Part shown: in pieces, positions 49,971-54,619 of the stretch
How positions within the stretch are numbered: position 1 is the stretch's first letter
How the letters are laid out: each line of letters opens with the position of its first letter
Source: Gardnerella vaginalis ATCC 14018 = JCM 11026
Lineage (GTDB): Bacteria > Actinomycetota > Actinomycetes > Actinomycetales > Bifidobacteriaceae
Assembly (NCBI RefSeq): GCF_001042655.1
Contig: NZ_AP012332.1
Span: forward strand, 1-64,000
DNA length: 64,000 bases
Direction: 5' to 3'
Translations under genes and position numbers: made by a program
The notes under the pieces: model-generated
What the model was told of the DNA's origin: nothing
The model's input: only the letters and a program-made list of their open reading frames with translations
The model's database searches: none

Positions 49971-50093
49971 TTGATTTCAGTCTGAATTCTGTGTGTGATA
50001 TTTAGACAAAAGATGTATAAATTGTATTTTTTGTACATTGGATGTATAAAAAATTGTACATTGAATGTACAAAAAATACGTTTTTGTGTATAC
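49971..50093. repeat. Direct repeat copy 2 with tandem operators (123 bp)
   Basis: The second copy carries the same two palindromes at 50032-50048 and 50055-50071. Here the repeat leads into a -10 box TATACT at 50089-50094 and the ATPase gene, so the palindromes are placed to control that promoter. Confidence 0.85.
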
Positions 50094-50101
50094 TTATATT
50101 T
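50089..50101 (+). promoter_or_regulatory. Probable leaderless start of the ATPase gene
   Basis: TATACT at 50089-50094 would place the transcription start at about the ATG at 50102. No ribosome site is seen upstream, which suggests leaderless translation. A convincing -35 box is not visible. Confidence 0.4.
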
Positions 50102-51358
50102 ATGAGCGCTTATTTTCCTAGACCAATTGCTGATTCTATTCTTCAATCAAAACGAAAAGTCGTGATTCTTGAAGGCGCAAGAGCTGTGGGAAAAACTATG
50201 ATGTCAAAGCGTCAGCTTGTGTCTAAAGGATTCTCATACGTGAGCCTTGCGGATGAAAATACGTTTGCGCTTGCTTCAACAGATTTATATGGTTGGTTAA
50301 AAAATCTTAGTACTCCAGTTGTTATTGACGAAGCGCAAAGACTGCCAAATTTGCCTCTTGCAATAAAAGAAATAGTCGATAATTCAACGGAAAACAGTTT
50401 GCAATATGTTTTAACAGGTAGTGCACTTATAAATCGCAATGGACTAGATGGTCAAGATCCTCTTGCTAGACGCGCTCAGCACTTTACAATGAGTCCTCTT
50501 ACGCAGTGTGAAATTACTCAAAATAGTAGAAATATTGTAGATAGTCTTATAGAAAGTAATCCAAATCTTAAATATGAAAAAGAAATAAGCAGAGAAGAAG
50601 TATATAAAATTATGGCTGCAGGAGGATTCCCAGAATATCAGCAATCGTATGATTCTTACGAGGCTTGGGAGCGAGAAAAGCTTGTTTCAAACGATATTCT
50701 TGCAGTGTTGGGAGATACCATTCTTCCAGGAGAACGATTAGACAGAAGCATGGCTGTTAGCATACTTAATAAGTTGTTATGTATGCCTGGCGGGATTCTT
50801 AATACGAGTTCAATAGGTCAAGATCTTGCTTTAGATAGGCGAACCATTGAGCGTTACGTTAGTGTATTCTTGCGTAGATTCTTAATAAATTATCTACCGA
50901 ATATAAAAACTGCGCCCAATCGCCAGACTTTTACTAGAGCCAAAATACACCCAGTCGATACGTCTTTAAGCATTCAAACAATGATTAGTAAGGGTCATAA
51001 TCCTTTGGAAGATCCCGTTATGTATGGGAATCTGCTAGAAAGTTTTGTTGTAAATCAGATTATGCCTGCTGTGCAATGGTCTAAAACGCATCCAGATTGC
51101 TTCTACTGGCGTGAACCTGGTAGCAGCCCTAAAGAGGTTGACCTTGTGCTAAGCTTCCGTGGAAATCTGGTTGGAGTGGAAGTAAAAAGCTCTAGCATGG
51201 TGAATCGTAACGATTTTAAGGGACTTGTAGCTCTTTCGCAAAAACCTGAATTTAAGCGCGGATATGTTGTTTACATGGGTCAAAAAATTATGCAGTGGGA
51301 GGATAATTTGTGGGCAATACCGTTAAGCGCTCTGTGGGAATGCGATGCGTTTGAGTGA
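50102..51358 (+). CDS. AAA ATPase of the DUF4143 family
   Basis: A 418-residue ATPase with Walker A GARAVGKT near residue 27, Walker B PVVIDEAQRLP near 78 and a C-terminal DUF4143 domain with a restriction-endonuclease-like core (EVDLVL then GVEVKSS). I choose ATG 50102 over the in-frame ATG at 50042, which would translate the operator region. Members are common orphan genes in Bifidobacteriaceae; the substrate is unknown. The promoter lies in the second copy of the 121-bp repeat. Confidence 0.88.
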   Translation: MSAYFPRPIADSILQSKRKVVILEGARAVGKTMMSKRQLVSKGFSYVSLADENTFALASTDLYGWLKNLSTPVVIDEAQRLPNLPLAIKEIVDNSTENSLQYVLTGSALINRNGLDGQDPLARRAQHFTMSPLTQCEITQNSRNIVDSLIESNPNLKYEKEISREEVYKIMAAGGFPEYQQSYDSYEAWEREKLVSNDILAVLGDTILPGERLDRSMAVSILNKLLCMPGGILNTSSIGQDLALDRRTIERYVSVFLRRFLINYLPNIKTAPNRQTFTRAKIHPVDTSLSIQTMISKGHNPLEDPVMYGNLLESFVVNQIMPAVQWSKTHPDCFYWREPGSSPKEVDLVLSFRGNLVGVEVKSSSMVNRNDFKGLVALSQKPEFKRGYVVYMGQKIMQWEDNLWAIPLSALWECDAFE

Positions 51359-51640
51359 TATTGCATAAGTCTTGGGGAATAATCCGCGTTGGCTCCTTCA
51401 AAGCGTGATTTTCATCACCGAGATTCTCGATTTTGCGCAACCTTGTAGTGCGTTTGTTGTGCGACACGCGCGAAAAGCCTTTCCTTAAAAAAACCTGGGA
51501 AAATTCTTCAAAAACCTTGAAATGCGTATTTTTACGGTTTAAGTGTTGTTTATCCACAAATTTTACGATGAGTGTTGCTTAATTGTGGATTAGTTTGTGT
51601 GTGACATTATTTTTTTCTGTTTGTTTTGTGTGGTTGCCTC
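51359..51640. other. Non-coding stretch with DnaA-like boxes
   Basis: I see no gene in these 282 bases. One perfect TTATCCACA lies at 51550-51558, and a one-mismatch box TGTGGATTA at 51584-51592. T-rich sequence precedes the promoter of the surface protein gene. Confidence 0.5.
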
Positions 51641-51670
51641 TTGACTTTTTTAAACGGGGGGGGGTATGTT
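51641..51670 (+). promoter_or_regulatory. Promoter with poly-G(9) spacer, candidate phase-variable switch
   Basis: -35 TTGACT at 51641-51646 and -10 TATGTT at 51665-51670 are 18 bases apart, and the spacer ends in nine consecutive G (51656-51664). Loss of one G would give the ideal 17-base spacing; gain of one or more would weaken it. The start of the surface protein lies about 125 bases downstream. Confidence 0.65.
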
Positions 51671-51752
51671 AATAAGCAAACGCTAGCTGCTCCTAGTTTT
51701 GGCTGGTGTTTAAACCACTATCCATATGTTGTGGATTGTGGAGCAAATTTTT

Positions 51753-51773
51753 CTCTGCGCCCCTAACGCAGAG
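51753..51773 (+). promoter_or_regulatory. Hairpin in the leader of the surface protein gene
   Basis: CTCTGCG at 51753-51759 pairs with CGCAGAG at 51767-51773 around a seven-base loop. It directly precedes the purine-rich ribosome site of the gene at 51795 and may protect the mRNA 5' end or modulate translation. Confidence 0.55.
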
Positions 51774-51794
51774 GAGAAGAAGAAAGGAAATAAA

Positions 51795-52448
51795 ATGATG
51801 AATAAGAAGGCTATCGCCGCTTTCGCTGCTGGCGCAACTTTGCTCGCTGGCTTTGCAATGGCAACCCCAGCAATGGCATTTGATTTTAATGTTGGATTGA
51901 ATGATGACGGTTCTTGGGGTACTACTCAGAAGAAGGCTGCTAAGACTTATACTAAAGCTGAGATCTTGAAGCTCGAGGCTGCTGTTGCAGAAGCTGAGGC
52001 TACTGTTGCAGAGAAGACAAAGGCAGCAAATGATGCTCAGACAGCTGCCTATGCTGATGATACTGATGGTGCAAAGAAGAAGGCTGCTGTAGAGAAAGCT
52101 CAGAAGGAATTGAGCGAAGCTCAGGAGAAGCTTGAGAAAGCTCAGAAGGAATTGAATGACGCTAAGCCTGCTCCATCTGAAGCTGATCCAAAGAATCCTC
52201 AGGGCACAAAGCCAGTTGAGGCTTCTAAGGATGCAACAGTTCAGCCAGGCAAGCCAGGTGCTAAGCCAGGTCAGGCTGCTGGCCAGGCTGGCGCTAATGC
52301 TGCTGCTGGTGCTAAGACCACTGTGGTTGAGAAGAAGAAGGATGGCGGTAAGAAGTTGCCTACTACTGGTGTTGGTGTTGCTTTGACTGCTTTGGCTGCT
52401 TCTATGCTTGCTGGTATGGGTGCTGTTGTTCGCAAGGCTCGTCACTAA
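51795..52448 (+). CDS. LPTTG cell-wall anchored surface protein with coiled coil
   Basis: A 217-residue secreted protein: signal peptide (about residues 1-29, ending PAMA), Ala/Glu/Lys-rich coiled coil (about residues 50-118), a Pro/Gly/Lys-rich spacer, sortase motif LPTTG at residues 188-192, hydrophobic helix and basic tail RKARH. It starts at ATG 51795 after AAAGGA. Codon use is strongly biased and GC content higher than in neighbours, pointing to high expression. The sortase at 20838 or another would attach it. Its promoter contains the poly-G tract. The ligand is unknown. Confidence 0.9.
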   Translation: MMNKKAIAAFAAGATLLAGFAMATPAMAFDFNVGLNDDGSWGTTQKKAAKTYTKAEILKLEAAVAEAEATVAEKTKAANDAQTAAYADDTDGAKKKAAVEKAQKELSEAQEKLEKAQKELNDAKPAPSEADPKNPQGTKPVEASKDATVQPGKPGAKPGQAAGQAGANAAAGAKTTVVEKKKDGGKKLPTTGVGVALTALAASMLAGMGAVVRKARH

Positions 52449-52673
52449 GCATTGCGCGCGCACTGGTGTTCGCTGGTGCGCGTGTAAAAAATAGGCTTGC
52501 GTTAGGCGGCGGCGCGTGTTTTGTGCTGCAGCTTGCACACAGGTTTAGAGTTTGCTCGGTTTGCCGAAATTTCCTTTTCTTACCGTGTAGGTTCTTTATT
52601 CTGCTTGCGAGTGCTTAATGCTTGTTGCTAGAGATGGTTTTCCGCTAGGGACGGGATTCTGTTCTTTAGTTTT
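52449..52673 (+). other. GC-rich non-coding stretch downstream of the surface protein gene
   Basis: No gene is seen. A 7-bp stem CGCGCAC/GTGCGCG spans 52457-52482 just after the stop codon, and a terminator follows at 52674. The 200 bases between them are richer in G and C than other gaps and could be a long 3' UTR or a small RNA. Confidence 0.4.
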
Positions 52674-52706
52674 AAAGGCTTGTTAGGTTTCTAACAAGCC
52701 TTTTTC
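52674..52706 (+). terminator. Terminator downstream of the surface protein gene
   Basis: AAAGGCTTGTTAG at 52674-52686 pairs with CTAACAAGCCTTT at 52691-52703 around a four-base loop, followed by T residues. Confidence 0.93.
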
Positions 52707-52735
52707 TTTTCTGTGTTTTGTTGCTCAATGCGCTA

Positions 52736-52860
52736 AGTATTTGGATATTTTTGTTTTAGAGTGATTGTGCAAGTAAAGAATAGCCCAGATTCGATTGCTG
52801 CAAAACGCTTGTATCGCAAGGCCTAAGACATGATTTCTTACACAGTTTTGGCCTATAACC
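52736..52860. repeat. Dispersed repeat, copy B
   Basis: Similar by eye to 49841-49970. It keeps GCAAGTAAAGAATA and TTACACA followed by TTTTGGC but differs in the middle. No gene overlaps it. Confidence 0.55.
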
Positions 52861-52885
52861 CATATATTGGATTAATCAACATAAA

Positions 52886-52934
52886 AAGCGCTGACTTATT
52901 TATGCGTTAATACACATTTTGTAAGTCAGCGCTT
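52886..52934. terminator. Terminator of the lipase gene
   Basis: AAGCGCTGACTTA at 52886-52898 pairs perfectly with TAAGTCAGCGCTT at 52922-52934; A residues at 52883-52887 become the T-run on the minus strand. Confidence 0.85.
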
Positions 52935-53010
52935 AGTTTATTGTTAGTAAATTACACGCACCAGTTGCCTATTGCTAATTACAAATCACTAATTAACAAT
53001 TAGCAATAAA

Positions 53011-54201
53011 TTAGAACGTGCGAACATTGTAGAAATTATTAAGCTCTTCCATCCAACGCCCAGTACCAGATATATCTCCTCTAGTTCCTACGGTAAACCC
53101 TGGGAAATTGTTCATTCGTGGTTCAAAGTAGCTTCGAGAGCCATGCCCTTCTGCAGAATTGCCAACACTTATAGCTCCTGCAAAATTGCCGACAGAACGA
53201 ATAACTCTGTCGTTGTCTACTTTGTAATGAACAGCATAACCTTCGCGAGTCAGACGATTCCCTGCGTTTGCTGCAGTGCGAAGCCAACGGTTGAAGATAT
53301 TTCCCCAAATTTGAGGAGCATTGAAAGTGTAGATTTTCTTAAGCCAAGAATATCCTTTACCGTCTGCACGAATCAAAGCTCGTTGAGCCAAATAGCCTCC
53401 AAGAGAATGACCAGTAATATATAGATTATTTACAGTGTGTTCTCTGCCATAACGCTCAATAAGTTGTTCAACATCGTAAGCCTGATCTGGATTGCGACCT
53501 ACAGCTATTGCAAGATCATCGTCATAATCATTGAATTGAGAAGTTCCACGAATTGCAAGAACTTGAACAGTTCCTTGCTCTAAGAACGGATAAGGACTTA
53601 CATTTTCAAACAAGACAGCGTCAAAACCACCCCTATTGTGGTAGGTTTCTTTAACTTTCCAGAACGGGGCTATCTCATTGTGCATAAGACGATATTCATT
53701 GCGGTTCTTATAAATGTCATGAAGTGGTTTAGTGTAATCAAGAACCTTGTTTATATAACTATCATCGCGATAAGAAAGTTCAGAAAATAGCGTCATATCT
53801 CGTGGGCTTATATCCCATCTGCGAGGATTGCTGTCTTGATTATCTGGAATACCATCGCCATCGGTGTCATTCATCATAGGGTGAGAATTGTACCCATAAT
53901 AAGTTTTACCGTTTTTAGTATAAGTGTAAATTTCTTGTCTATTAGTTAAGCCGTCGCCATCTAAATCAGCATTTGGGTCTAAAGGCTTTTTATGATACAA
54001 AGCCATGTCTAAAGCTCCGGGAAGCTCCAGCTTTATATCTCCATTTGAAATCTGTTTAGCTGTTTTCTCTGTAAGAGGAGTGTGTCTTTCTGTAAGCTGC
54101 TCGTTTTGAGTATATGCCATCGCTGGTGTAGTGATGCTTAACATGCTTAGCATAAGACACAGGCTTGCAGATAAGCCTATTAGTTTGAAGCTTTTCTTCA
54201 T
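53011..54201 (-). CDS. Secreted class 3 lipase-like protein
   Basis: A 396-residue secreted protein: signal peptide ending in PAMA, then calcium-binding repeats like thrombospondin type 3 (DPNADLDGDGLTNRQE and NDTDGDGIPDNQD), then a lipase 3 domain with the nucleophile elbow GHSLGG (Ser near residue 266) and a putative catalytic Asp in DNDRVIRS and His in GHGS. The ATG at 54201 follows TAGGAGGA; an ATG at 54222 would sit upstream of that site. It would hydrolyse host or bacterial acyl esters outside the cell. Confidence 0.87.
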   Translation of the reverse strand: MKKSFKLIGLSASLCLMLSMLSITTPAMAYTQNEQLTERHTPLTEKTAKQISNGDIKLELPGALDMALYHKKPLDPNADLDGDGLTNRQEIYTYTKNGKTYYGYNSHPMMNDTDGDGIPDNQDSNPRRWDISPRDMTLFSELSYRDDSYINKVLDYTKPLHDIYKNRNEYRLMHNEIAPFWKVKETYHNRGGFDAVLFENVSPYPFLEQGTVQVLAIRGTSQFNDYDDDLAIAVGRNPDQAYDVEQLIERYGREHTVNNLYITGHSLGGYLAQRALIRADGKGYSWLKKIYTFNAPQIWGNIFNRWLRTAANAGNRLTREGYAVHYKVDNDRVIRSVGNFAGAISVGNSAEGHGSRSYFEPRMNNFPGFTVGTRGDISGTGRWMEELNNFYNVRTF

Positions 54202-54225
54202 GATTCCTCCTACTTTTGTCATTTA

Positions 54226-54265
54226 TTTTGGGAATTAACCCGAATTAACTCGTTTTGGGAATTAA
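54226..54265. repeat. Direct repeats upstream of the lipase gene
   Basis: The 13-base TTTTGGGAATTAA occurs at 54226-54238 and 54253-54265, with a third GAATTAA at 54242-54248. They lie 25-64 bases before the lipase start and could be regulator sites. The following 350 bases up to the nan promoter show no gene. Confidence 0.5.
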
Positions 54266-54619
54266 TCCTTTGTTTTTTACTATCTTGTTAGCGCGTTTTA
54301 CGCTTAAAAGCTACAAATAGCAAGTTATGTAAACTGCACCTTCGCTTAATTACAATTACAGTAATGCTTAATTTTCTTCAATAACTCTCTGCAATCAACT
54401 TTGACGATATGAGTTCGATTAAGAAAATCCTAGATGCTGCTAAGTGTTCTTATATGCTCAAATCCGCGCTTGATGTGCACAAATCTACGCTTGTATTGGT
54501 GTAGCTTATATGACCATGCTACAGCATTAATCAATTAAATACATCATTAATTAGCATAAAATAAGTGAAAATTGTTGTGTTAATGACATTATGACTTTAT
54601 GACATTAATCTGCTTTAGT

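Follow-up and report, generated by a model that had tools for sequence, protein, structure and literature searches.

In several bacteria, promoter tracts made of a single repeated base go along with the expression of surface genes, as far as the available portions of the relevant papers describe them. In porA of Neisseria meningitidis, a poly-G tract lies between the -10 and -35 boxes, and the number of G residues in this spacer tracks transcription (PMC3899988). The Gardnerella locus analysed here likewise has poly-G between these boxes, whereas porA is one gene and here one to six near-identical promoters per genome were found, in an actinobacterium and in front of a structured leader. The related surface genes fim2 and fim3 of Bordetella pertussis likewise carry a homopolymer in their promoters, which fim expression follows, but this tract is poly-C and fim is additionally under the bvg locus (PMC2562373). 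The closest functional likeness is to vlp of Mycoplasma hyorhinis, a surface-antigen family whose members have their own promoter tracts and whose expression follows them (PMC10502178). This likeness is at the promoter level: the vlp tracts are poly-A and belong to a mycoplasma, whereas the tract described here is G, and the locus would work alike without being a member of the Vlp family. In Streptococcus pyogenes, the transcript of R28/Spy1337, a Gram-positive LPXTG surface protein, follows an upstream homopolymer of 9, 10 or 11 bases; however, that tract is poly-T, lies between divergent genes and concerns one locus (PMC7098570). The hif genes are a further published case of a promoter tract.

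Closer to Gardnerella, G-tract slippage in surface-structure genes was reported for the pilus of its relative Bifidobacterium breve (Penno 2022, PMC9187656), but the tracts studied there are coding and act by frameshift; promoter-spacer tracts are mentioned, without data, in the part of the paper available. In Gardnerella itself, tracts of at least 8 are abundant, about 70% of the G/C tracts lie upstream of genes, many are found at genes with surface-protein motifs (often LPXTG), and one tract was 9 or 10 long between colonies by Sanger sequencing, according to the available part of Garcia 2024 (PMC11287997). The tract tested in that work is not the promoter tract described below: primer mapping placed it at the coding tract 1305822 of the genome studied here, which has 11 G as assembled. 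Of 173 loci searched, L073 alone contains the primer pair, the two sites being 545 bp apart and flanking the tract at 1305822; six further loci match the forward primer only. The available text of Garcia 2024 (PMC11287997) does not contain the spacer position, the gene family, the tract-less sister gene or the leader, and that of an earlier Gardnerella genome paper (PMC2890570) mentions neither phase variation nor homopolymers. A tract in a Gardnerella sialidase gene is cited in the accessible part of a review. Judged by title and the start of the abstract, none of the open-access matches listed was a paper on this promoter family. The kind of mechanism is already known.

The analysed stretch of DNA (the window) comprises bases 1-64000 of the single 1,667,406-base contig of the genome (G000:C1). 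Gardnerella piotii UGent 18.01 and Gardnerella vaginalis GED7760B were the closest named relatives found, and we regard the genome as G. vaginalis in a broad sense. The features of the locus are the following.

51480-51877, + strand: conserved 5' block (upstream region, promoter, leader and signal peptide), found by blastn against four tract paralogs of the same genome
51641-51646, + strand: -35 box TTGACT, bases read directly
51656-51664, + strand: G9 tract, the 3' half of the 18-bp spacer; G9, G10 and G11 in other copies
51665-51670, + strand: -10 box TATGTT (TATCTT in some copies), bases read directly
51678-51711, + strand: leader hairpin H1, just past the putative transcription start; from folding and covariation, 9 of 9 counted pairs changed on both sides
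51715-51741, + strand: leader hairpin H2, from the fold of this single sequence
51748-51778, + strand: leader hairpin H3, adjoining the ribosome site; from folding and covariation, 5 of 7 counted pairs changed on both sides
51773-51787, + strand: purine stretch GGAGAAGAAGAAAGG, invariant, with the ribosome site; 43 occurrences across 11 of 12 Gardnerella-like genomes
51795-52448, + strand: secreted protein of 217 aa with a signal peptide at about residues 1-28, an A/K/E-rich body and LPTTG near the C-terminus
52674-52703, + strand: terminator-like hairpin followed by a T-rich tail, from a consensus scan (6 sites found, 2.3 expected)

A preliminary description of this DNA had reported nine G residues in an 18-base spacer between TTGACT and TATGTT, and had noticed no other long G tract. 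Both statements agree with the bases at 51641-51670 and with the run counts: the spacer occupies 51647-51664 with the G9 at its 3' end, no other run of at least 7 G is present on either strand of the window, and the remaining G runs on both strands are 1-5 long. The homopolymer therefore lies between the -35 and -10 boxes, as these are assigned by sequence. TATGTT shares only four of six bases with the consensus. The boxes alone are weak evidence, because a consensus scan of 51350-52760 gave three promoter-like sites, TTGACT-18-TATGTT among them, against a shuffle mean of 1.2. The strong evidence for a promoter is its copies elsewhere and not the boxes by themselves. Transcription would start at about 51677.

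These copies were collected with a loose pattern, fixed only at the boxes and the bases adjoining them and allowing any 3-24 bases between. It matched 35 places, distributed over 11 of 112 genomes of the genus, and all 35 intervals are pure G, with 9 residues in 10 copies, 10 in 23 and 11 in 2. The same pattern applied to viral contigs as a control gave 34 matches, none of them with a pure G interval and with a longest G run of 3. A search with 211 bp of promoter-region DNA, in which the boxes were not required, returned the same 11 of 112 genomes. In a twelfth genome (G022), left out of the counts, the tract is cut off by masked bases. These 12 genomes, of 1.5-1.8 Mb, are called Gardnerella-like here as carriers of the promoter or gene family, which has 1-6 near-identical tract promoters per genome. 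The predicted architecture, a G tract forming the 3' half of the promoter spacer of a surface gene, thus recurs well beyond the window.

Within the genome studied, five promoters share the whole sequence from TTGACT to TATGTTAATAA and differ only in the tract, which has 9 G at this locus and 10, 10, 11 and 10 G at the other four. In G009, two copies with identical flanks (150 bp upstream and 125 bp downstream, 275 bp in all) have 9 and 10 G, respectively; since the flanks are identical and the genes behind them start alike, the pair looks like a recent duplication. An invariant tract length, named at the outset as the result that would speak against a variable promoter, was not seen between copies (9, 10 and 11 G), all lengths being as assembled and open to homopolymer errors. 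A rule of a single 9-G copy in each genome, considered as a hint of mutual exclusion, holds in 6 of 11 genomes; shuffling gave P 0.24, and the rule was dismissed as not significant. A positional ortholog of the locus in the nearest species was also rejected: in 4 kb of G009 (L125) the cassette alone matches and its neighbours do not.

The whole genome contains 24 runs of at least 9 G (three of 9, nine of 10, seven of 11, four of 12 and one of 15), one run of exactly 7 and none of exactly 8. The absence of 8-G runs is not absolute in the group, since 6 of the 12 Gardnerella-like genomes have 1-3 each. Models of order 1, 3 and 4, based on the composition of the window, gave an expectation of 0.002-0.29 runs of at least 9 G; an order-5 model gave 5.1, a value derived from 9 contexts, most of them supplied by the tract itself. 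With 24 runs against fewer than 0.3 expected, the long tracts are unlikely to be due to chance. A high number of G tracts is not a trait of Gardnerella only, as several of the 112 genus genomes equal or exceed this number, with up to 74.

The 24 tracts were classed as 17 non-coding and 7 in or over genes; of the 17, two coincide in part with short open frames on their own strand and three with frames on the opposite strand. TA follows directly 3' of the tract in 13 of the 17 non-coding cases (the other four lack it) and in 8 of 12 when the five family copies are set aside, compared with 37 of 454 runs of at least 3 G in the window (P 7e-7 for 8/12 against this background). The eight additional tracts before TA are 10-15 long. 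The hexamers upstream of them resemble -35 boxes better than do those at random upstream positions, with 26 of 20,000 controls as good; the match is at least 4 of 6 bases in six of these putative promoters and only 3 of 6 in two, within a permitted distance range that was set after inspection. By eye, several tracts of the TA type precede long open frames with starts that look like secretion signals.

A gene without a tract provides an internal comparison. A search of the 12 Gardnerella-like genomes located the 15-base leader motif GGAGAAGAAGAAAGG at 43 places, spread over 11 of them; 35 of these places follow tract promoters and 8 lie at a tract-less sister gene, one each in 8 genomes. A ninth sister, in G014, was recognised despite a masked motif, and none was found in G112 and G132; nine of 11 genomes have one. 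All nine sisters carry TTGATT or TTGAGT, a 17-bp spacer and TATCTT or TAAGTT, with no G run longer than 5 upstream, as located with a pattern run without a control; in the G031 sister, the box pattern also matches at one further place besides the 17-bp one. As orthologs that fall into two sequence classes, the nine are not independent observations. They suggest a correct assignment of the boxes and 17 bp as a working distance, in which case the shortest tract, with 18 bp at this locus, would come nearest to the working spacing.

The stretch from the assumed start to the ATG (51677-51797, 121 bases) folds at -41.8 kcal/mol (z -4.59), with 0 of 200 shuffles as low, which bears out an earlier remark on a leader hairpin before the ribosome site. 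Over 33 distinct leaders, H1 and H3 together have standard pairs in 86.6% of cells and changes on both sides at 14 of 16 pairs; at any one pair, as many as 9 of the 33 rows are unpaired, in part because of misalignment. Their covariation score was 0.499. Shuffles scored 0.305, with none of 500 reaching the observed value, and sliding the structure, which had been defined after viewing the alignment, gave no more than 0.176. The number of further pair types in H1 and H3 was reached by 13 of 500 shuffles. An RNAalifold consensus recovered most of the H1 and H3 pairs, plus others. In folds of single sequences, the hairpin at the ribosome site appeared in 28 of 31 distinct leaders, sisters included, and was absent from L031, L033 and L034 within the short stretch folded. 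A search of the leader against Rfam gave a best E-value of 0.32, all four matches being far under the gathering scores. H1 starts 8 bases past the end of the -10 box, the position expected if it lies near the 5' end of the messenger.

The open reading frame starts with ATG at 51795, and its stop codon ends at 52448. In a blastn comparison of window positions 50000-54300 with the four tract paralogs of the same genome (L072, L077, L079 and L080), identity of 81-92% extended from 51480 to 51872-51877, and common DNA resumed from 52338-52366 onward; DNA in common with the sister of this genome was limited to 51743-51872 and the 3' end. Among six members of the genome (15 pairs), signal peptides had a mean identity of 92% (79-100) and the last 30 residues were 94% identical (83-100), whereas the bodies were 25% identical (15-55). 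Behind the leader motif lie 40 distinct gene starts, and all of them begin with M[M/L/F]NKK. The gene is complete and unmasked in 31 cases (7 were cut and 2 masked), and each of these 31 has a hydrophobic stretch followed by RK-x-RH at its end. The motif at the sorting position is LPTTG here (within 52338-52448) and LGNAG in the five other members of the genome; elsewhere, with alike C-termini (L031, L033, L049, L101 and L109 compared), it reads LPGTG, LAKTG, LSKTG or THTGTG. The anchor model PF00746 scored 17.1 bits on the 217-aa protein, against a cut-off of 20, and LPTTG was recognised by eye; in a Pfam search with three members of the genome, a below-cut-off anchor match was the sole noteworthy one. 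The predicted products of these genes are probably surface proteins. A coiled coil, also proposed in the preliminary description, was not confirmed: the basis for it is an A/K/E-rich stretch with one proline at residues 44-125.

We consider it likely that the locus is a slippage-driven phase-variable promoter, and predict, with good support from its copies, that it is part of a family-wide switch larger than was first apparent. The position and purity of the tract, the differences in length between copies (as assembled), the conserved boxes, the covarying leader and the tract-less sister are all supported by sequence; from these we infer slippage within clones, the start site and the active lengths. 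Addition or removal of a G by slippage would shift the boxes by one base per G and also rotate them relative to each other, and RNA polymerase would be expected to prefer the shorter spacing. As every family member would have its own switch, the set of surface proteins of a cell would vary at random, while the sister gene with its fixed 17-bp spacer would be expressed steadily. The 5' end of the messenger would carry the conserved hairpins and the ribosome site common to the family. The family copies, the G009 pair with 9 and 10 G and the nine sisters thus lend weight to the phase-variable reading put forward in the preliminary description, with switching itself as the inferred step.

The narrow spread of lengths, 9-11 G, counts against switching. 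Together with the strict purity in 35 of 35 copies and the conservation of neighbouring bases, it would fit a tract serving as a fixed structural or protein-binding spacer, either a stiff run of G or a site for a regulator, which would determine the strength of the promoter without switching it. However, copies with identical flanks differ in length, the sisters have equivalent boxes without a tract, and the eight other tracts before TA in this genome span 10-15 residues; we therefore regard a fixed spacer as unlikely. It is highly improbable that the tract is real but of constant length and that the differences come from sequencing or assembly noise: homopolymer lengths are error-prone, as the accessible parts of PMC11287997 and PMC9187656 warn, but noise leaves unexplained the excess of 24 runs of at least 9 G over fewer than 0.3 expected and their placement before TA, and another Gardnerella tract was 9 versus 10 long by Sanger sequencing (PMC11287997, in the part available). 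We give least credence to expression being controlled mainly after transcription through the structured leader, with a small effect of the tract. The covariation of H1 and H3 and the invariant 15-base purine stretch would suit such control, but the sister gene, which lacks the tract, shares the ribosome-site motif and the signal peptide and also has an H3-like hairpin; leader and tract are therefore separable.

The phase-variable promoter may also be one element of a genus-wide combinatorial coat, in which 1-6 exchangeable cassettes per genome, similar in leader, signal peptide and C-terminal end but not in body, stand behind near-identical switchable promoters, beside the tract-less sister found in 9 of 11 genomes; slippage would mix the cassettes, and new bodies would arise by recombination between the constant ends. 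We put this forward tentatively and lean slightly towards doubting it; if true, slippage alone would give many surface combinations. Gardnerella plays a central part in bacterial vaginosis, and the diversity of its clones is little understood. A switch common to a surface-protein family would predict which surface proteins vary independently and, with a tract-less control gene in the same genome, would provide one pattern that can be counted in reads from isolates or vaginal metagenomes.

Some further observations concern the remaining tracts of the genome (G000:C1). Those in or over open frames are at 616500, 619519, 625326, 627746, 1101795, 1305822 and 1508014; these seven coding tracts would act via frameshift and not via promoter spacing. 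Four of them cluster at 616-629 kb, in frames that by eye start like secretion signals. The G residues lie on the + strand in 11 of the 12 tracts below 821 kb, 616500 being the exception, and on the - strand in all 12 tracts above 1.03 Mb, suggesting that one replication strand or gene orientation is preferred. The tracts at 820889 and 1148510 (L027 and L069, respectively) have common flanking sequence. In L069, the G run lies inside a strong terminator-like hairpin followed by Ts, and the stretch folds at -38.7 kcal/mol; the predicted fold of L027 differs and is weaker (-14.9). These two tracts are possibly slippage-tuned terminators.
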